Positions 6,472 through 45,779 of a DNA stretch of 57,383 nt are shown here, piece after piece. This stretch comes from a bacterium (GTDB lineage Bacteria; ARS69). The stretch is taken from positions 1-57,383 of the forward strand of contig JALGZR010000006.1 of assembly GCA_025774805.1 (NCBI GenBank). The letters are read 5' to 3'. How positions within the stretch are numbered: position 1 is the stretch's first letter; the number at the start of each line of letters is the position of its first letter. The notes below the pieces were generated by a model that saw only the letters and a program-made list of their open reading frames with translations, did no database searches and was not told where the DNA came from. The position numbers and the translations under genes were made by a program.

Positions 6472-7290
6472 TTGCACCTCGAATCCCAGCATCGTGCTCT
6501 CATCGCCGTTGCGGTCCTCGGCGCTGCCGCCGTCGCCTCCGGGGAACCGGGGCCCTCCCCTCTCGACCCCTCGCCTCCCGACGCATCCTCCCCCGCGCCC
6601 GCCCTCTGCCCACCCGCCGCGTGGGTGGAGGGGAACGTGGTCTCCCCCCCCTTCCTGACCTGGGGACCGGAGACGGAGAAGATCTTCCGGGAGGAGAACC
6701 GCCACAACGACTACTCGGCCGAGATCCACTACGATCTCGGTCTCTACTTCTTCGAGCAGGGAGAGCACGACCTCTCTCTCAGGCACTACCGTCAAGCCAT
6801 CGAAATCGATCCCGAGTTCGCCGAGGCGTACTTCGGCGTCGGTCTGATCTTTTACACGTTGGGTGACGACGAGAACGCGATCCGGTTCTATCTGAGCTCC
6901 CTCGAGTACGATCCCCGGGACGCGGACACCCGCAACAACCTGGGCCTCATCTACTACCGGCGGGGTGAGCTCGCCCTGGCCCGCGCCCAGATCGAAGAGG
7001 CGATCCGCCTCCAGCCCGACTTCACCGACGCCTTCTACAACCTGGGTCTCGTGTCCTACCGGCAGGACGAGCCGCACGTGGCCATCGCGCACTTCTTGAA
7101 GGCGCTCAACCACGATCCCACCTACCTTCGCGCCCGGTTCAATCTCGGGGTCGTCTACTTCGAGCTCGGCATGAACGATCAGGCCGAGGAGCAGTGGACC
7201 CTGATCGAGAAGCAGGCCCCGAACACCCCCCTCGCCATCCAGGCCCGGGAAAGCCTGACGATCCTCCGCGAGAAGAAGGGCTCAGACTAG
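6472..7290 (+). CDS. Secreted tetratricopeptide repeat protein
   Basis: The 272-residue product starts with a signal peptide (about residues 1-23, ending VASGEPG), then a proline-rich linker. At least five TPR units run from about residue 80 to the end, with typical motifs such as AEAYFGVGLIFYTLGD, ADTRNNLGLIYYRRGE and TDAFYNLGLVSYR. TTG 6472 is chosen because GGAGA lies about 7 bases upstream and the signal peptide begins right after it. TPR proteins scaffold complexes; no partner is evident. The stop codon TAG is the first three bases of a family A element. Confidence 0.82.
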   Translation: MHLESQHRALIAVAVLGAAAVASGEPGPSPLDPSPPDASSPAPALCPPAAWVEGNVVSPPFLTWGPETEKIFREENRHNDYSAEIHYDLGLYFFEQGEHDLSLRHYRQAIEIDPEFAEAYFGVGLIFYTLGDDENAIRFYLSSLEYDPRDADTRNNLGLIYYRRGELALARAQIEEAIRLQPDFTDAFYNLGLVSYRQDEPHVAIAHFLKALNHDPTYLRARFNLGVVYFELGMNDQAEEQWTLIEKQAPNTPLAIQARESLTILREKKGSD

Positions 7291-7468
7291 CCCGCATTTC
7301 TCACCAGGCTCGTCGCGAGGCTGCGGATAGTCGTGGCTGGCGAGGAGATGGGGTGCTTTCGCCCGAGGCGGGGCTGTAGCCCCGTCGCAGGGCGGAAGTG
7401 CCCCAGCGACGAAGCCAGACGCGGCTTCGCCGCTGCCGCGGCAGAAACTGGTGAGAAATGCGGGCTAG
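7288..7468 (-). repeat. Family A palindromic element, full length, reversed
   Basis: Perfect outer arms (TAGCCCGCATTTCTCACCAG and its complement), CTAG on both sides, and the core hairpin read on the minus strand. TAG at 7288-7290 is the stop codon of the TPR gene. This is the only full-length copy in reverse orientation. Confidence 0.92.
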
Positions 7469-9229: not shown

Positions 9230-9406
9230 CGGGCTGCATCTCTCACCGGCCTCCGCCGCGGCGGAGGCCGGTCCCGCCCGGCTTCGTCGTCTTGGCCTTC
9301 CGCACACCCGAGGGGTGAAGGCCCCGGTTCGGACGCAAGCATCCCATCTCCTCGCCGGACACGGCTTTCCACCGCCTCGCGACGAGACTGGCGAGAAGCG
9401 CGGGCC
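9230..9406 (+). repeat. Family A element, divergent full-length copy
   Basis: The arms GGGCTGCATCTCTCACCGG and TGGCGAGAAGCGCGGGCC are recognisable. The inner hairpin has been replaced by a different stem (GGCCTTC/GAAGGCC) that can still pair. It is not next to a stop codon. Confidence 0.7.
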
Positions 9407-12878: not shown

Positions 12879-13058
12879 GGCCCGCATTTCTCACCAGTCT
12901 CTGCTGCGGCAGCGGCAAAGCCGCGCCTGGCTTCGTCGTTGCGGAGCTTCCGCCCTGCGACGGGGCTACGGCCCCGCCTCGGGCGAAATCCCCGCATCTT
13001 CTCGCCAGTCACGACGATCCGCAGCCTCGCGACGAGCCTGGTGAGAAATGCGGGCTAG
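12879..13058 (+). repeat. Family A palindromic element, best-preserved copy
   Basis: Proposed pairing: outer stem 12881-12896 with 13039-13054; hairpin 12912-12916 with 12920-12924; inner stem CTGGC 12927-12931 with GCCAG 13004-13008; CGCCC 12951-12955 with GGGCG 12981-12985; apical CGGGGC 12961-12966 with GCCCCG 12971-12976 around TACG. The conserved 3' strip TCCGCAGCCTCGCGACGAGC is at 13018-13037. Its right end contains the VanZ start codon. Confidence 0.92.
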
Positions 13059-38368: not shown

Positions 38369-38740
38369 CGATCCGGGGCAGCGCGCGACGGGCACTCCCC
38401 GGCCGGCGTCTCTCTCCGCCTGCGCATGGGGCCCCCTGATGTCTCTGTCGACTCGTGAGGATCCGCTCTTGAGCTCACGGCAAGAGAGATGTTGCGGTGA
38501 GCCAACATCTTCCGCTGGTCCGCGGCTCCCCTCGGACGCGGCCCCGCGGCCGCCACGGCAGATCGGTGAGATCCGCCGGCGAGACGGACCCGACAAATCG
38601 GCAGCCGGGGGTTCTGAGGCGGCCTGGAGGCCCTCTCAGGCCGGATCCGGCCCTCCTACCCGGGCCCGCCCCTCGCGGAACGACCCGTTCGTTTCTAAAG
38701 TGGAAGCGTCTCTCCCCCTTGTCTCGAAAGGTGGTCGATC
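38369..38740. other. Gene-free stretch with an inverted repeat
   Basis: The stretch holds an inverted repeat AGATGTTG (38487-38494) / CAACATCT (38503-38510) with an 8-base centre. Promoter boxes for the small secreted protein are not clear. Confidence 0.4.
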
Positions 38741-39055
38741 ATGAATACCCGGACAGTTCCGGCTCTCGCTGGCGTGGTGCTCGGCGTGATCCTCCTGAGC
38801 GTCCCCGTCTCGACGCACGCCTACGAGGTGGTGCGGAACGTGGGTCAGAAGCCGGCCCTCGTGAACAACGATCCCGAGGTCCCGGACGCGAAGATGCCGG
38901 CGAAGATGTTGGCCGGCCGCACCGCACGAGTCACCGAAGTCACCCGTCCCACCGAAGCGATCCGCCCCGAGCGGCGACCGATGCGAGATGTGAGCAGTCT
39001 CCGTCATGTGATGCACATCCTCCGGATCCTGCGTCTGGGAGGGATGCTGCGATGA
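38741..39055 (+). CDS. Small secreted protein upstream of the TPR regulator
   Basis: The 104-residue product has a signal peptide (MNTRTVPALAGVVLGVILLSVPVSTHA), then a short basic mature part rich in Arg, Pro and Met (VTRPTEAIRPERRPMRDVSS). No known family. AAAGGTGG precedes ATG 38741. Its stop overlaps the start of the TPR/sigma-54 regulator (ATGA), so the two are translated together. Confidence 0.68.
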   Translation: MNTRTVPALAGVVLGVILLSVPVSTHAYEVVRNVGQKPALVNNDPEVPDAKMPAKMLAGRTARVTEVTRPTEAIRPERRPMRDVSSLRHVMHILRILRLGGMLR

Positions 39056-41421
39056 CGTTCACCTTGCTGCCTTTCCATCGCTACCGGGATGCGGTGCGCC
39101 GAGGGGACGCGAGTCGCGCGGCGAGCCATTTCCAGGAGGCGATCGAGGCGTACACGGAGGCGATGGTCGTCCGAGACGACGACCTCACGCCGGACCAGGA
39201 GGGCGATCTCCGCGTCCGGATCGCCGAGTGCTATTTGAACCTCGGGGACGTCGGCTCGGCGGACCTCGCGTTGGCTCCGGCGGAGACGCTGGACGTCGCG
39301 AGGCTGCGGCCCGGCACGAGGGGCGCGATTCTCTGTGTCCGCGGACGCATCGCGTTCACTCGAGGAGAACACCGTCGGGCGGCGGAGATCGCCACGGAAG
39401 CGTGGGAGATCCTCCGTCCCACCGACGAAAATCGGCGGGTGGCCCGGGCGCTGACGCTGCGCGGCCACGCGAACCGCCATCTCGGGAACCTCGCCGAGGC
39501 CCGGGAGGACTACACCGACGCCATGGCGGCCGCCCGGCGGGCCGGCGACGATCACGAGATCGGGCTCTCCGCCTCGAATCTCGGGTTCCTGCTCTGGAAG
39601 AGCGGCCGGTACCCGGAGGCGCGCCGGCACCACCGCCGCGCCGTGGAGATCCACGAGAAGTGCGGAAGCGAGCCCCAGCTCACGCGTGAGCTCTTCGCCC
39701 TCTCCGTGGACGAGTTCCACTGCGGCGACTGGAAGCAGGTCGAGGCGCTCCTGACCCGCTGCTTCGAGCGGGCGCGCAAGTCGAACGACCGGCGGCTCCT
39801 GTCGGCGGTCGCCATCGCGCGGGGGCGGCTCGATCTCTATCGCGGGAAGGATCCCCGTCCCTCTCTCGAGGCGGCGAGGAAGATCGCCGAGCCCGCCGGC
39901 TACGCGAACGACCTGGTTCTGATCGGCGAGTTCCTCGGTGAGGCCGCCCTGGAGCGCGGCGACTGGGAGGAAGCTCGTCGGTTGCTCTTCGAAGCTCTGC
40001 AGAAGGCGACGGCGTCCTCCCCCCAGGGGGAGCCCGCGGTCGACACGACCTGGAGACTCGCCCGGGCCGAAGAGGCCCTCGGCGATCCCGAAGGTCGAGT
40101 CGTCGATCGGCTCGAGCGTGCGGCGAGGATCGCGCACGAGCGGGGCTATCGCTTCCAGGAGGCTCAGGTACGCCGCACTCTCGGTGAGGCGCTGGCGAGC
40201 CGGGGACGCCTCGATGAGGCCCGCCGCCACCTGGAGTCCGCGGTCTCGGTCTTCCGGGAGCTCAAGGTCCCGTTCGAGATCGGTCGAAGCCTGGTGGCCT
40301 GGGCCTCCTACCTGGCCGAGATCGGGATGGATCTGTCCGGAGTCGCGCCCCTCTTCCGGGAGGCGGAGGAGATCCTGTCCGAGCTCGGAGCCGAGCGGGA
40401 GGCCGGGAAGGCCGCCGACGGGCTGGCGGCCGCATCCGGGGAGCCCGTCCGCTCGGCCGGGGCGGGGGACGATGATCCGTTCGCGGAGATCGTGACGACG
40501 TCCGGCGTGATGGAAGACGCGATCCACCGGGCTCGTCGCATCGCCCCCTCGAACATCCCGGTGCTTCTCACCGGAGAGACCGGCACCGGGAAGGAGCTCT
40601 TCGCCCGAGCGATCCACCACGGGAGCCGACGCGACGGGGCGCCGTTCCTCGCGGTCAACTGCGCGGCGCTCTCCGAGTCTCTCCTCGAGGCGGAGCTCTT
40701 CGGGCACGTCAAGGGCGCGTTCACCGGCGCGCACTCCGACAAGACGGGCATCTTCGAAGCCGCGGACGGGGGCACGGTCTTCCTGGACGAGATCGGGAAG
40801 GCACCGCTTCCGTTGCAGGCCAAGCTGCTGCGGGTTCTCGACGCGGGCGAGGTGCGCCGGGTCGGCGGCGTCGACGCCATCTACGTCGACGTGCGCGTCG
40901 TGGCCGCGACGAATCGGCCGCTCGGTGAGCTGGTCGGCGAAGAGGAGTTCCTGCCCGACCTCCTCTACCGGCTCCGGGGGTACGAGATCCACGTTCCTCC
41001 GCTGCGCGAGCGGTCCGGGGACGTGGTCCACCTCTTCGAGCGGTTCGCCGCCAGGTCGCTGTCGGCCGCGGCTCGGGAGATCCTCGAGCGCTACGACTGG
41101 CCGGGCAACGTTCGCGAGATTCGCAACCTCGCGGAGAGCGTCTCGTTCCTGACCTGTGGTCGCGGGGCCATCCCCGCGGATTCCCTGCCGGACTGGCTCC
41201 GTGAGGCCGTCCGGGTGAAGGAGGCGACCGAGGCGGCCAATGCGGCGCTCCCATCGCCCTGCCTGCAGGATGCCGAGAGGGATGCCTTGATTCGGGCGCT
41301 CGAGGAGGCGGGGGGGAATCGCTCCCGCGCGGCTCGGGCTCTGGGAATCTCGCGTCAGACCCTTTACACCAAGATGTCGAAGCTCGGCATCGTCGGTGTC
41401 GGGAGAGAGAACGCCGCCTGA
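39052..41421 (+). CDS. TPR sensor fused to a sigma-54 activator
   Basis: The 789-residue product has about 480 residues of TPR-like helical repeats (ALTLRGHANRHLGNLAEAREDY, GLSASNLGFLLWKSGRYPEAR and others), then a sigma-54 AAA+ domain with Walker A GETGTGKE, the intact contact loop GAFTGA, Walker B VFLDEIGKA, and WPGNVREIRNLAESV. A Fis-type helix-turn-helix ends the protein (GNRSRAARALGISRQTLYTKMSKLG). There is no receiver domain; TPRs probably respond to a protein or peptide. A palindrome and a sigma-54 promoter lie downstream. Confidence 0.92.
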   Translation: MTFTLLPFHRYRDAVRRGDASRAASHFQEAIEAYTEAMVVRDDDLTPDQEGDLRVRIAECYLNLGDVGSADLALAPAETLDVARLRPGTRGAILCVRGRIAFTRGEHRRAAEIATEAWEILRPTDENRRVARALTLRGHANRHLGNLAEAREDYTDAMAAARRAGDDHEIGLSASNLGFLLWKSGRYPEARRHHRRAVEIHEKCGSEPQLTRELFALSVDEFHCGDWKQVEALLTRCFERARKSNDRRLLSAVAIARGRLDLYRGKDPRPSLEAARKIAEPAGYANDLVLIGEFLGEAALERGDWEEARRLLFEALQKATASSPQGEPAVDTTWRLARAEEALGDPEGRVVDRLERAARIAHERGYRFQEAQVRRTLGEALASRGRLDEARRHLESAVSVFRELKVPFEIGRSLVAWASYLAEIGMDLSGVAPLFREAEEILSELGAEREAGKAADGLAAASGEPVRSAGAGDDDPFAEIVTTSGVMEDAIHRARRIAPSNIPVLLTGETGTGKELFARAIHHGSRRDGAPFLAVNCAALSESLLEAELFGHVKGAFTGAHSDKTGIFEAADGGTVFLDEIGKAPLPLQAKLLRVLDAGEVRRVGGVDAIYVDVRVVAATNRPLGELVGEEEFLPDLLYRLRGYEIHVPPLRERSGDVVHLFERFAARSLSAAAREILERYDWPGNVREIRNLAESVSFLTCGRGAIPADSLPDWLREAVRVKEATEAANAALPSPCLQDAERDALIRALEEAGGNRSRAARALGISRQTLYTKMSKLGIVGVGRENAA

Positions 41422-41490: not shown

Positions 41491-41560
41491 CCCTCTCCGT
41501 CCGCCCTTCCCTCGCTCTCCCGAACTCCCTGCCCACCCTGTCAACCGGCCTTCCGTGGGA

Positions 41561-41578
41561 CTGGACACATGTGTCCAG
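41561..41578. promoter_or_regulatory. 18-bp perfect palindrome, candidate activator site
   Basis: CTGGACACATGTGTCCAG is a perfect palindrome about 170 bases before the sigma-54 promoter at 41747. This spacing fits an enhancer site, most simply for the TPR/sigma-54 activator encoded just upstream. Confidence 0.6.
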
Positions 41579-41746
41579 AATCTTGACGCTCTTCCTCGAA
41601 ACCGGAATCGGCCGGAGGGGTGCGAGAGGGTGTTCCGGCAGGCACGCGGAGCGAAGGCTTTCGACGAGGGCCGATTCACCCCCATTCACGGCCTCTGACG
41701 GCCCTTTCGGGTCGTGCCGGGGATTTCGACGCTCCCTGCCCGATGC

Positions 41747-41764
41747 TTGGCCCCCGACTTGCAC
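41747..41764 (+). promoter_or_regulatory. Sigma-54 promoter with no obvious gene
   Basis: TTGGCCCCCGACTTGCAC has GG at 41749-41750 and GC at 41761-41762 with 10 bases between. The -12 box TTGCA is perfect; the -24 box is TTGGCCC. A start near 41774 is predicted. Confidence 0.6.
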
Positions 41765-41773
41765 TGTTTACTC

Positions 41774-42148
41774 GTCGTCCGTCTTCAGGAGACGGGCCCG
41801 ACCCTTGACCGGGCAGGCACAGGATCCCGTCTGGGGAACGCGCAACAGCGCATGGGGTGAGGGGCGGTCGCGTGAAGCCGACCAGGGGAAACCGACCACC
41901 TCTCTGCCGTCCCTCTCGTCGGTGAGACCGGGGGGCCCGGCGCGGTTCGCGGTGAAGGGATCTCCCCCCCGTGGGGCCCCCGGTCGAATCGTTACCAGGG
42001 GAGCGAAGGGGAAGGGCTCGCACTCCGCCGAGACAGGCCGCCCTCGGGGGCGCCGGCACCGATCATGGCTCGCGACCAGGTGCTCGGCGCCGCCCGGGAT
42101 TCCGATGACCCCCGCGGGGGAGACGTCCTCTCGTCTCCCCCGTCTTTT
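41774..42148 (+). ncRNA. Predicted sigma-54-dependent transcript, no clear protein
   Basis: This is the span from the predicted start to the end of a strong terminator, about 375 bases. The longest open frame (within 41571-42539) has low-complexity, Arg/Gly/Pro-rich sequence, and no well-placed ribosome site is visible. It could be a non-coding RNA or carry a small peptide that I cannot recognise. Confidence 0.35.
42115..42148 (+). terminator. Rho-independent terminator
   Basis: Perfect 11-bp stem CGGGGGAGACG (42115-42125) / CGTCTCCCCCG (42132-42142), then TCTTTTC. It ends the predicted sigma-54 transcript, directly before a family A element. Confidence 0.8.
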
Positions 42149-42331
42149 CAGCCCGCGTTTCTCACCAGTCTCTGCTGCGGCAGCGGCAAAGCCGCACCTG
42201 GCTTCGTCGTTGCGGCTCTTCCGCTCTGCGACGGGGCTACGGCCCCGCCTCGAGCGAAAGCACCCCATCTCCTCGCCAGACACGACTATCCGCTGCCTCG
42301 CGACGAGACTGGCGAGAAACGCGGGCTGGCC
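42149..42331 (+). repeat. Family A palindromic element, full length
   Basis: The arms read GCCCGCGTTTCTCACCAG and CTGGCGAGAAACGCGGGC. The change from GCAT to GCGT on the left is matched by ACGC on the right, a clear compensating pair. The core is complete. It lies in intergenic DNA. Confidence 0.92.
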
Positions 42332-42860
42332 TCAGGCTCGGTCTTCGTCTTCTGCGGAGGGAATCAGTCCCGGCGCTCCGGTGTGTCGCGGTCGGGCGCG
42401 TCCCGGCCGGGCGCATCGCCGTCGGGCGGCGGCGGCGCGGGACTCGGGCGTCCTCCGGGATCGTCGGGTGGAGGTTCATCGGCTCCACCCCCACCCCCGC
42501 CCATCGCTCCGAGCACGGCGTGAAGGAGTTTGCGGCTGAAGACCTGCAGCTGGTCCAGGGGGGAGGCTCCTTCCTCTCTGTCGAGGGGATCCGCGGCGGA
42601 CTTGGCAGTCGCACCCGTCGAGGGCGGACGATCGCGGTCGGGACAGCTCTCTTTCTATCGAACGAACCGCCGCGCCGGAGAGTTCCGCTCCGAGGGACGA
42701 GCCGCCCTTTTCCAGGGTAAAAACTCGCGGGGGTGGCTCTCCTCGGGGACGGGGATTACCATGAAGGAGGACTCCCGCCCCCTCCCGAGACGGATCATGT
42801 TCCACGGGCGCTCACGGTCTCGACCGTCGCACGACCTTCCGCTCCGTTTTTCCCGGGGTC
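42332..42860. other. Unresolved stretch between two family A copies
   Basis: No confident gene. The minus strand has protein-like stretches in two frames (one around 42640-42720, one around 42365-42640 with an amphipathic helix and a Pro/Asp-rich tail) but no start codon. This could be a decayed gene. A GTG-started frame at 42520 on the plus strand looks like a double-glycine leader but has no ribosome site. Confidence 0.3.
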
Positions 42861-43039
42861 TAGCCTGCATGTCTCACCACGCTCTGCTGCGGCTGCGGCA
42901 AGCCGCGCCTGGCTTCGTCGTTGGGGCGCTTCCGCCCTGCGACGGGGCTACGGCCCCGCCTCGGGCGAACGCCCCCCATCTCCTCGCCAGACACGCCTAT
43001 CCGCAGCCTCGCGACGAGCCTGGTGAGAAATGCAGGCTT
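42861..43039 (+). repeat. Family A palindromic element, full length, at a gene start
   Basis: The arms CCTGCATGTCTCACC and GGTGAGAAATGCAGG show a compensating C-to-T/G-to-A pair relative to other copies. The core is complete. The element runs directly into the signal peptide of the gene that follows, and the right flank is CTTG rather than CTAG. Confidence 0.92.
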
Positions 43040-44020
43040 GCGATCTGCCTGCTGGGAGTCCCGCTCCTCCTCGCCGGCCCCCTGCCCGCGCCCGCCGGTC
43101 CGGACGACCCCCTCCGCGGGGAGGTCGTCGCTCGCCTCGCGGTCACCGCGACGCCGGACCGTACGGGGACCCTCCGCGTGCCGAGCCCGTTCGCGGTTCT
43201 CCCCGGAGGGGAGCGGGTCGCGATCTACGTCCCGGAGTCGAACGGTATCTTCCTGATGGAGGGGGAGCGCATCCTCCACCATCTGCCCGTCTCCCCCACG
43301 ATGGAGAGCGTTCACGACCTCGCCGCCTCCGAATCGCTGCTCGTCGCGGGCAGCCGCCCCTCGGACGGCCGCAACACGGCCCGGCTCGAGGTGTTCGACG
43401 TCGCGACGGGTAAGCGGCTGGTTCCGGTGGTCACGGGCAACCCCCATCTACGTGTGGCGAAACGCGACGCGCACCTCTGGCGCGTCGTGGTCCGGGGAAG
43501 CCGCGTCGGCGTGTATCAGCCGGCGCTCGGCGCGACCGTTCCGCTCTGGGATCGCGCGGCGGGCTTCGTGACGAGCGAAGAGCAGATCCGTCGAATGCGG
43601 GCGGGAGTCAGTCTGGATCGCGCCCCCGCGTGGGTGCCGACCTCGGACGGCAGGATCTCCTACAAGGAGAGAGGCCACACGAGAGAGGTGGCGGGAGCGG
43701 AGGCCGGCCTCTTCCTGGACGGTTTCCCGAACGGGGACCTCCTTCTTCTCGAACCGACCGACGTGGCGGACCTTCCCGGCGAGGAGGGCATCCTGCTACC
43801 CCCCGTGCTGCGGCTGCGCCACTGGCACGGCGAGACCGCGATCACCGAGCTTCGCCTGTCGGCCCTGGACCCGCGCGTCCATGCAGAGCGGCTCATCGTG
43901 CACGGACGACCGGTCCGCGAGCGGGACGGGCGGATCTACTGGATCGCCGTGGGTCACGACTACCTCGAGATCCGATCTCTTCGATTGAGCGAATCCCGGC
44001 TCGACGGCTCCGCGCCGTGA
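42869..44020 (+). CDS. Secreted protein of unknown function; native start apparently lost
   Basis: The clearly protein-like part starts at about 43034 with a signal peptide (LAICLLGVPLLLAGPLPAPAGPDDP), then about 310 residues with a beta-propeller feel (FAVLPGGERVAIYVPESNGIFLMEG, LEVFDVATGKRLVPVV). No family is recognised. No ATG, GTG or TTG lies in frame between the repeat and the signal peptide. The given start is the first in-frame ATG, inside the repeat; the repeat's own ATG (43030) is one base out of frame. The gene overlaps recO by 4 bases. Confidence 0.6.
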   Translation: MSHHALLRLRQAAPGFVVGALPPCDGATAPPRANAPHLLARHAYPQPRDEPGEKCRLAICLLGVPLLLAGPLPAPAGPDDPLRGEVVARLAVTATPDRTGTLRVPSPFAVLPGGERVAIYVPESNGIFLMEGERILHHLPVSPTMESVHDLAASESLLVAGSRPSDGRNTARLEVFDVATGKRLVPVVTGNPHLRVAKRDAHLWRVVVRGSRVGVYQPALGATVPLWDRAAGFVTSEEQIRRMRAGVSLDRAPAWVPTSDGRISYKERGHTREVAGAEAGLFLDGFPNGDLLLLEPTDVADLPGEEGILLPPVLRLRHWHGETAITELRLSALDPRVHAERLIVHGRPVRERDGRIYWIAVGHDYLEIRSLRLSESRLDGSAP

Positions 44021-44814
44021 CCCACGTAGACAGCGACGCGCTCGTCCTCCGCCACGTGCGGCAGGGAGACACGTCCCGCGTCGTGACCCTTCTCGTGCGG
44101 GACGGGGGCAAGATCGCCGTGCTCGCCAAGGGAAGCCGCCGCCCGGGCAGCCGCTTCGGCGCCGGACTCGACCTGTTCTGCCTGACCCGGGTCCGCTATC
44201 GCGTCCGTCCGAACCGCGATCTCCTGTTTCTCGACGACTGCGAGTTGAAGCGGAACTTCGACGATCTCTCCCGCGACGTGATGGGCTACGCGGCCGCGGG
44301 AACCTGCGCCGAGCTCGTCGATCGATCGGTTCCGGCCGGGGCCGCCTCCGCGGAGATCTTCGATCTTCTGCTGGAGACGTTCACGGTGCTCGCCGAGACC
44401 GCGCCTCTCCCCGAGGGCGAGGGTCCGCGGGCGGCCGCGCTCTCCGTCGTCTTCCAGCTGCGACTGATGGACGTCCTCGGCATCGCGCCCGAGCTCACGG
44501 GATGCGTGAGCTGCGGGGCGGCGGACTTGGCGGGATCGTGCTCCCTGTCGCCGCGACGGGGAGGCCTTCTCTGTCGACGCTGCCGCGCCTCCGAGGGCGG
44601 GCGACGCATCGACCCCGCGACCGTCGAGCTACTCCGCGCCGGGCTCTTCGGGGAGATCTCCGGAGTGATGACCGCACCTCGGCCGCCGACGCGAGCCGCG
44701 ATCCTCGAATCGCGGGGGGCACTCGACGCGCTGCTGGAGTACCATCACCACGGCAGGCCCTCCGGGTTCCGGAGTCGGCACTTCCTCGACGACCTCTGGA
44801 AGCAGCGATCATGA
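44017..44814 (+). CDS. recO: DNA repair protein RecO
   Basis: The 265-residue product has the N-terminal OB fold (ALVLRHVRQGDTSRVVTLLVRDGGKIAVLAKGSRR), the central helical region, and a four-cysteine zinc site (GCVSCGA and LLCRRC). RecO helps load RecA on SSB-coated single-stranded DNA. Start GTG 44017 overlaps the upstream stop; its own stop overlaps the next gene (ATGA-like), so the three genes form an operon. Confidence 0.88.
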   Translation: MTHVDSDALVLRHVRQGDTSRVVTLLVRDGGKIAVLAKGSRRPGSRFGAGLDLFCLTRVRYRVRPNRDLLFLDDCELKRNFDDLSRDVMGYAAAGTCAELVDRSVPAGAASAEIFDLLLETFTVLAETAPLPEGEGPRAAALSVVFQLRLMDVLGIAPELTGCVSCGAADLAGSCSLSPRRGGLLCRRCRASEGGRRIDPATVELLRAGLFGEISGVMTAPRPPTRAAILESRGALDALLEYHHHGRPSGFRSRHFLDDLWKQRS

Positions 44815-45427: not shown

Positions 45428-45606
45428 TAGCCAGCATATCTCACCAGCCTCTGCTGCGGCCGCGGCTCGCCGCGCCCGGCTTCGTCGCTGGGGCACTTCC
45501 GCCCTGCGACGGGGCTACGGCCCCGCCTCGGGCGAAAGCACCCCATCTCCTCGCCAGCCACGACTATCCGCAGCCTCGCGACGAGCCTGGCGAGAAATGC
45601 GGGCTG
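45428..45606 (+). repeat. Family A palindromic element, full length
   Basis: The arms read CTAGCCAGCATATCTCACCAG and CTGGCGAGAAATGCGGGCTGG, more decayed than in other copies. The hairpin loop is TC and the core is intact. It sits downstream of the recO operon. Confidence 0.9.
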
Positions 45607-45779
45607 GATCCTCGGGGCTTCCCTTCCCAGAGCCGAGAGAGTGCGTTCCCCGCGGCTCACCCAAATGCCGTCGGTCGAGGTCAGGGCTTCCACAGGGCTT
45701 CGACACTTGGAGCCGCCGGAAGAGCACGGTCACGCGGAGAGACATCCCTCGTCCCGGAACGCGCGCACCTCGACGCCGC
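45607..45779. other. Gene-free stretch
   Basis: About 170 bases between the family A element and the MNT remnant. I see no gene, RNA or repeat. Confidence 0.4.

Follow-up and report, generated by a model that had tools for sequence, protein, structure and literature searches.

What is transcribed from a sigma-54 promoter that lies behind the gene for a sigma-54 enhancer-binding protein (bEBP) and is followed by a terminator, with no convincing reading frame between the two? This arrangement was noted in a preliminary description of 57,383 nucleotides of bacterial DNA (contig JALGZR010000006.1, positions 1 to 57,383; hereafter the window). It placed a perfect palindrome directly after a TPR-domain activator gene, a sigma-54 promoter 170 bases past the palindrome and a rho-independent terminator further downstream, and proposed that the activator drives a non-coding RNA or a small peptide.

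The Qrr RNAs (activated by LuxO) and NrsZ (activated by NtrC) are sigma-54-dependent small RNAs under bEBP control, and are shorter than the stretch considered here. In Pseudomonas, as the cited reports describe it, the gene for the sigma-54 activator CbrB is followed by a separately transcribed, sigma-54-dependent RNA, CrcZ or CrcY, that CbrB activates (PMC8871633, PMC6296734). GlmY of the Enterobacteriaceae is described as a decoy regulatory RNA whose sigma-54 promoter depends on an enhancer-binding protein, QseF/GlrR (PMC7073468).

In this study, we compare four homologous loci: that of the window, one on a second contig (C34) binned with the window's genome (G000), and one in each of two related genomes, G001 and G004. 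We conclude that 41774-42148 probably encodes a regulatory RNA of some 370 nt, highly structured and transcribed as a free-standing unit under the control of sigma-54 and a bEBP.

Results

Layout of the locus

The palindrome, promoter and terminator of the preliminary description were all found in their described places, within the following layout.

38741 to 39055, plus strand: gene for a small secreted protein, a cassette member, from the open reading frame list (104 aa, signal-peptide-like N-terminus)
39052 to 41421, plus strand: TPR-domain sigma-54 bEBP, the presumed activator (Pfam Sigma54_activat, 4.5e-64; TPR_12; HTH_8)
41539 to 41588, plus strand: half-site (enhancer) array TGTCAA, TGGACA, TGTCCA, TTGACG, with comparable arrays at all four loci
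41561 to 41578, no strand: perfect 18-bp palindrome CTGGACACATGTGTCCAG, starting 139 bp past the end of the activator frame at 41421
41748 to 41763, plus strand: sigma-54 -24/-12 promoter, TGGC-N7-TTGCA (consensus score 10/12)
41774 to 42148, plus strand: predicted non-coding RNA, about 375 nt from +1 to terminator tail, on the grounds of homology, structure and no shared frame
42115 to 42148, plus strand: intrinsic terminator, a 12-bp stem with a T-rich tail; each of the four loci has a strong stem in this position
42866 to 44020, plus strand: secreted protein resembling a beta-propeller, co-inherited with the RNA (dispersed repeat in the N-terminal part; start uncertain)
44023 to 44814, plus strand: presumed recO, named from its sequence, a flanking gene outside the cassette

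Here and below, the DUF502-like gene, mgtE, recO and the kinase gene on C34 carry the names that we assume from their sequences, assigned without a domain search.

Homologous loci and their distribution

A DNA search of the bin holding the window (5.1 Mb, contamination 5.06%) showed that 41774-42061 recurs, with 76% identity, on the 3.8-kb contig C34. A partial second recO is also present on this contig (76% identity to that of the window), and given this and the level of contamination it may come from a related organism. Among 60 genomes, the DNA search matched the RNA stretch in three: the window's own, G001 and G004, the latter two representing two other genera of the same family. The phylum is represented by five genomes, all of one family, so that three of its five members match.

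A covariance model of the RNA core (R1), applied with stricter filters to 290 genomes, gave matches in the same three and revealed no further copy; sub-threshold matches of up to 15.4 bits in the window and the loci were treated as noise. A pattern scan of genome contigs returned two records, JAGQIB010000025.1 and JALGZO010000541.1, which we equate with the G001 (C540) and G004 (C545) loci. One match on a viral contig, around which the other RNA motifs were absent, was treated as chance. The RNA thus appears to be conserved only in close relatives within one family. Rfam 15 gave no match in the window at gathering score, and with E values up to 10 only weak, below-threshold matches were obtained across 41500-42350. 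Literature searches found no report naming the RNA; the RNA motif or record names matched work on another phylum.

Chance is ruled out as the origin of this set of elements, since the RNA, its terminator stem, the half-site arrays and the placing of the promoter are found again at three other loci. The comparative check thus bore out the preliminary description: the relatives keep the half-sites and the promoter as well as the RNA core and the stem of the terminator.

Promoter and upstream half-sites

Scored against TGGCACG-N4-TTGCW (maximum 12), the sigma-54 promoters reach 10 in the window, 10 on C34, 11 in G001 and 10 in G004; sites of at least 10 occur 11 times in 453,939 sampled bases, both strands, in a sample that includes the window. 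The distance from the -24 box (first base) to the start of the conserved 5' hairpin is 29 nt (window), 28 nt (C34), 29 nt (G001) and 28 nt (G004), which puts the hairpin a few bases past the expected sigma-54 transcription start.

Upstream of each promoter lies an array of TGGACA/TGTCCA-type half-sites, to which protein binding is predicted from the sequence. Counted from the first base of the -24 box, the half-sites stand at -209, -186, -176 and -165 in the window; at -188, -165, -157, -146 and -134 on C34; at -188, -166, -158, -146 and -134 in G004; and at -142, -133 and -122 in G001. By itself the palindrome is unremarkable: perfect palindromes of 14 bp or longer number 17 in the window, and four of these reach 18 bp or more. 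The five genomes together contain 11 matches to the strict pattern TGGACA-N0-6-TGTCCA, of which three belong to RNA loci (window, C34 and G004); the 5.1-Mb bin has three occurrences, two at RNA loci. Near the other eight no copy of the RNA motif was found, and one of them has a weak sigma-54-like site. The G001 locus lacks the exact palindrome and is missed by the strict pattern because its sequence reads TTGACA-N3-TGTCCA. Elsewhere in the window, a perfect palindrome of 28 bp, ACCGGCCTCCGCCGCGGCGGAGGCCGGT, is found at 9245-9272.

Conserved fold of the RNA

The consensus structure of the four loci comprises 67 pairs in eight helices, the principal elements of which, in window coordinates, are as follows.

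41777 to 41797, plus strand: P2, a 5' hairpin starting at about +4 (two compensatory pairs)
41807 to 41814 with 41978 to 41985, plus strand: P1, a long-range helix closing the core (one compensatory pair, C-G to G-C in the window)
41843 to 41851 with 41940 to 41948, plus strand: P4, enclosing P5 (41859 to 41904) and P6 (41915 to 41935)
41988 to 42007, plus strand: P8, a hairpin with the invariant TTACCAGGGGAGCGAA (41992 to 42007; 16 of 16 bases identical at the four loci)
42043 to 42098, plus strand: P9/P10, a 3' hairpin with CTCGCGA (42069 to 42075) near its tip (two compensatory pairs in P9)

Identity between loci is 71-81% from +1 to the end of P8 and 56-76% in the 3' domain, as compared to about 50% in the spacer before the promoter and 65-70% in the activator coding DNA. 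Across the alignment 94.0% of 268 pair cells are paired, a figure biased upward since the structure was derived from these same sequences; controls with slid partners gave 34-54% paired and 0-3 compensatory pairs. Six compensatory pairs were counted, the four in P2 and P9 plus one each in P1 and P5, against a mean of 2.8 in shuffles, of which 4 in 500 reached six. With four sequences only this covariation is thin, and the RNAalifold covariation term of the raw alignment (+0.44) gave no support. Nor were single-sequence folds unusually stable, with z values of -1.1 and -1.6 for two sequences against shuffles. At each locus the enforced consensus fold lies 10-15 kcal/mol above the unconstrained minimum, and the minimum-energy folds contain 28-54 of the 61-65 formable consensus pairs. 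The outer helix of P8 is formable at three of the four loci.

Two segments are exposed in the predicted fold: UUACCAGGGGAG, and CUCGCGA at or near the tip of the 3' hairpin. The sequence UUACCAGGGGAGCGAA is identical at all four loci. The terminator stems are predicted at -23 to -30 kcal/mol throughout, with arms that differ in sequence; the T tail is poor in G001. A generic terminator scanner missed the terminator of the window and found its counterpart on C34.

The surrounding gene cassette

The gene order DUF502-like, mgtE, small secreted protein, TPR activator, RNA, propeller-like protein, recO is common to the window, G001 and G004. In G004 this stretch is split between two contigs, the second of which starts within the propeller gene and carries the recO end. 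G002, whose assembly is listed as 100% complete, has recO immediately after mgtE. Activator orthologues occupy the same place in G004 (68% identical) and G001 (63%), and the best full-length matches elsewhere are 42% (G002) and 40% (G003) identical. The activator orthologue, RNA and propeller protein are present in the same three of the five genomes, the absences in G003 being weak evidence because its assembly is 82% complete.

The TPR activator gene adjoins the RNA at three of the four loci. On C34 (locus L018) the gene upstream of the RNA encodes what we take to be a hybrid histidine kinase with a receiver domain; it stands in the activator's place, and the half-site array and RNA are kept. 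A motif filter matched the three orthologues only. Nine paralogous activator loci (L028-L036) were examined, seven with a readable downstream stretch and two (L029 and L030) without; some of these stretches hold sigma-54-like sites. The window's genome gave 33 matches to the bEBP region, indicating many sigma-54 activator paralogues.

The small secreted protein has no Pfam match, and is 24-26% identical to its G001 and G004 counterparts. The model of the protein downstream of the RNA, built from four sequences only, is all-beta with a mean pLDDT of 72, and aligns with propellers of the NHL, WD and BamB types at TM values of about 0.3-0.5; a beta-propeller fold is likely, yet uncertain given these modest values.

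About 40 places in the window's genome carry a dispersed element, some 180 bp long, with imperfect inverted repeats at its ends. Within the window, copies lie at 42150-42335, 42862-43040, 45429-45609, 12879-13058, 1756-1939 and 7289-7466, with further partial copies; one starts right after the RNA terminator and another lies inside the N-terminal part of the propeller frame. The element was not detected at the G001, G004 or C34 loci.

Partners and candidate targets

Hfq, which an Hfq-dependent base-pairing RNA would require in its host, was found in none of the five genomes of the phylum; the same search was positive in 5 of 14 controls. CsrA was found in three of the five (G000, G001 and G003), a distribution that does not track that of the RNA. 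Neither standard partner is therefore supported.

One sequence before the small secreted protein gene drew attention as a possible target of the RNA or a strong ribosome site.

38726 to 38737, plus strand: the 12-nt GAAAGGTGGTCG, just upstream of where the gene for the small secreted protein starts, identical in the window, G001 and G004

It is invariant across three genera despite encoded proteins only 24-26% identical to that of the window. The sequence AAAGGTGGTCG before an ATG occurs once each in the window's genome, G001 and G004; G002 and G003 have no occurrence. In the window the leader is complementary to the 3' arm of P5 (41893-41904) at 11 of its 12 nt, and elsewhere at 9-10 of 12 with wobbles. 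As a target interaction this pairing was rejected: duplex energies were no better than random, 283-292 of 300 random segments being at least as good. Comparison of three RNA segments with the mRNA starts of the cassette gave no consistent pairing.

Alternatives to a free-standing RNA

The chief rival reading, which we regard as unlikely, is that the RNA is the long 5' leader of the propeller gene, such that transcription of that gene starts at the sigma-54 promoter and the terminator serves as an attenuator under a ligand- or protein-binding fold. It owes this rank to the propeller gene, which follows the RNA in the same direction at all four loci (the TPR activator precedes it at three) and occurs in the same genomes, and on C34 and in G004 the terminator comes shortly before the propeller start. 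However, the terminator stem looks unconditional, being very stable at every locus irrespective of the sequence of its arms, and in the window about 600 nt, including the dispersed repeat, separate it from the propeller gene. A TACCAT box past the terminator at all four loci could, weakly, be the gene's own -10. Among 163 upstream regions TANNNT was counted 77 times against 49 on the reverse strand, and TACCAT four times against once, counts that are suggestive only of an own promoter.

That the RNA titrates CsrA in the manner of CsrB/RsmZ is improbable to a much greater degree. CsrA is encoded in G000 and G001 and GGA occurs in the exposed segments, but GGA counts of 9, 12, 18 and 13 at the four loci, against shuffled means of 11.9, 11.3, 13.6 and 10.9, show no clear enrichment, and ANGGA counts are 1, 1, 3 and 0. 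Moreover, no CsrA was found in the RNA-bearing G004 (assembly 92% complete), while in G003 CsrA was found and the RNA was not.

Of the two products originally proposed, the non-coding RNA is favoured by the compensatory changes, the indels and the lack of a common frame. An unrecognised small secreted or leader peptide has very little probability: high GC leaves long open frames, one of which, from column 51, is shared by the window and C34, but the four sequences have neither start, stop nor frame in common, pairwise gaps are mostly of 1, 2 or 4, and conservation follows the helices. Scarcely credible, too, is the reading of the stretch as a decayed element, or one that works as DNA (binding sites, recombination), without any function as RNA. 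The inverted-repeat element beginning at 42150, right after the stretch, might speak for it, but this repeat was not detected at the other three loci, and conservation sets in at the sigma-54 +1 and agrees in strand with promoter and terminator.

Discussion

The features expected of a regulatory RNA controlled by sigma-54 and a bEBP were a -24/-12 promoter at the RNA 5' end (four of four loci), upstream half-sites (four of four) and an adjacent bEBP gene (three of four). We infer from this adjacency, from shared presence and absence and from the dyad array that the TPR activator drives the RNA. The TPR domain would receive a signal, upon which the enhancer-binding protein would oligomerise on the half-site array and contact sigma-54 polymerase by DNA looping, so starting RNA transcription. 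More tentatively, the RNA may act in trans, independently of Hfq, through the invariant exposed UUACCAGGGGAGCGAA and CUCGCGA, which might bind a protein or pair with mRNAs. The likeliest targets would be the secreted proteins of the RNA's own cassette.

The assignment of the TPR protein as activator of the RNA draws on analogy with CbrB-CrcZ and GlmY. As in the accounts of CbrB and CrcZ/CrcY, an activator gene is followed by a sigma-54-dependent RNA that forms its own unit. The differences are that CbrB is described as part of a two-component system with non-palindromic sites, whereas the candidate here carries TPR repeats and the sites are palindromic, and that CrcZ is described as sequestering Crc/Hfq, a partner of which Hfq was not found in these five genomes. 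GlmY likewise combines a regulatory RNA with a sigma-54 promoter and its enhancer-binding protein; as reported, it belongs to a GlmY/GlmZ pair acting through RapZ, and its sequence and neighbourhood differ. Structured RNA classes from comparative genomics also have a conserved structure and no assigned function; here a promoter, an enhancer array and a candidate activator are identified in addition.

A broader reading, speculative and rather doubtful, is that of a lineage-restricted cassette in which a TPR sigma-54 activator governs a large non-coding RNA of new fold and, through it, two secreted proteins without Hfq, the RNA possibly acting on or mimicking the GAAAGGUGGUCG leader, and the whole unit being gained or lost between mgtE and recO.

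The RNA is one without an Rfam match for which the sequence itself reveals the promoter, the enhancer array and the probable activator, in a sparsely sampled host group (five genomes for the phylum) where Hfq was not found. If this interpretation is true, the Pseudomonas layout of an activator gene beside its small RNA would extend to an activator of the TPR type, and the two invariant segments would provide specific handles for finding the targets of the RNA.
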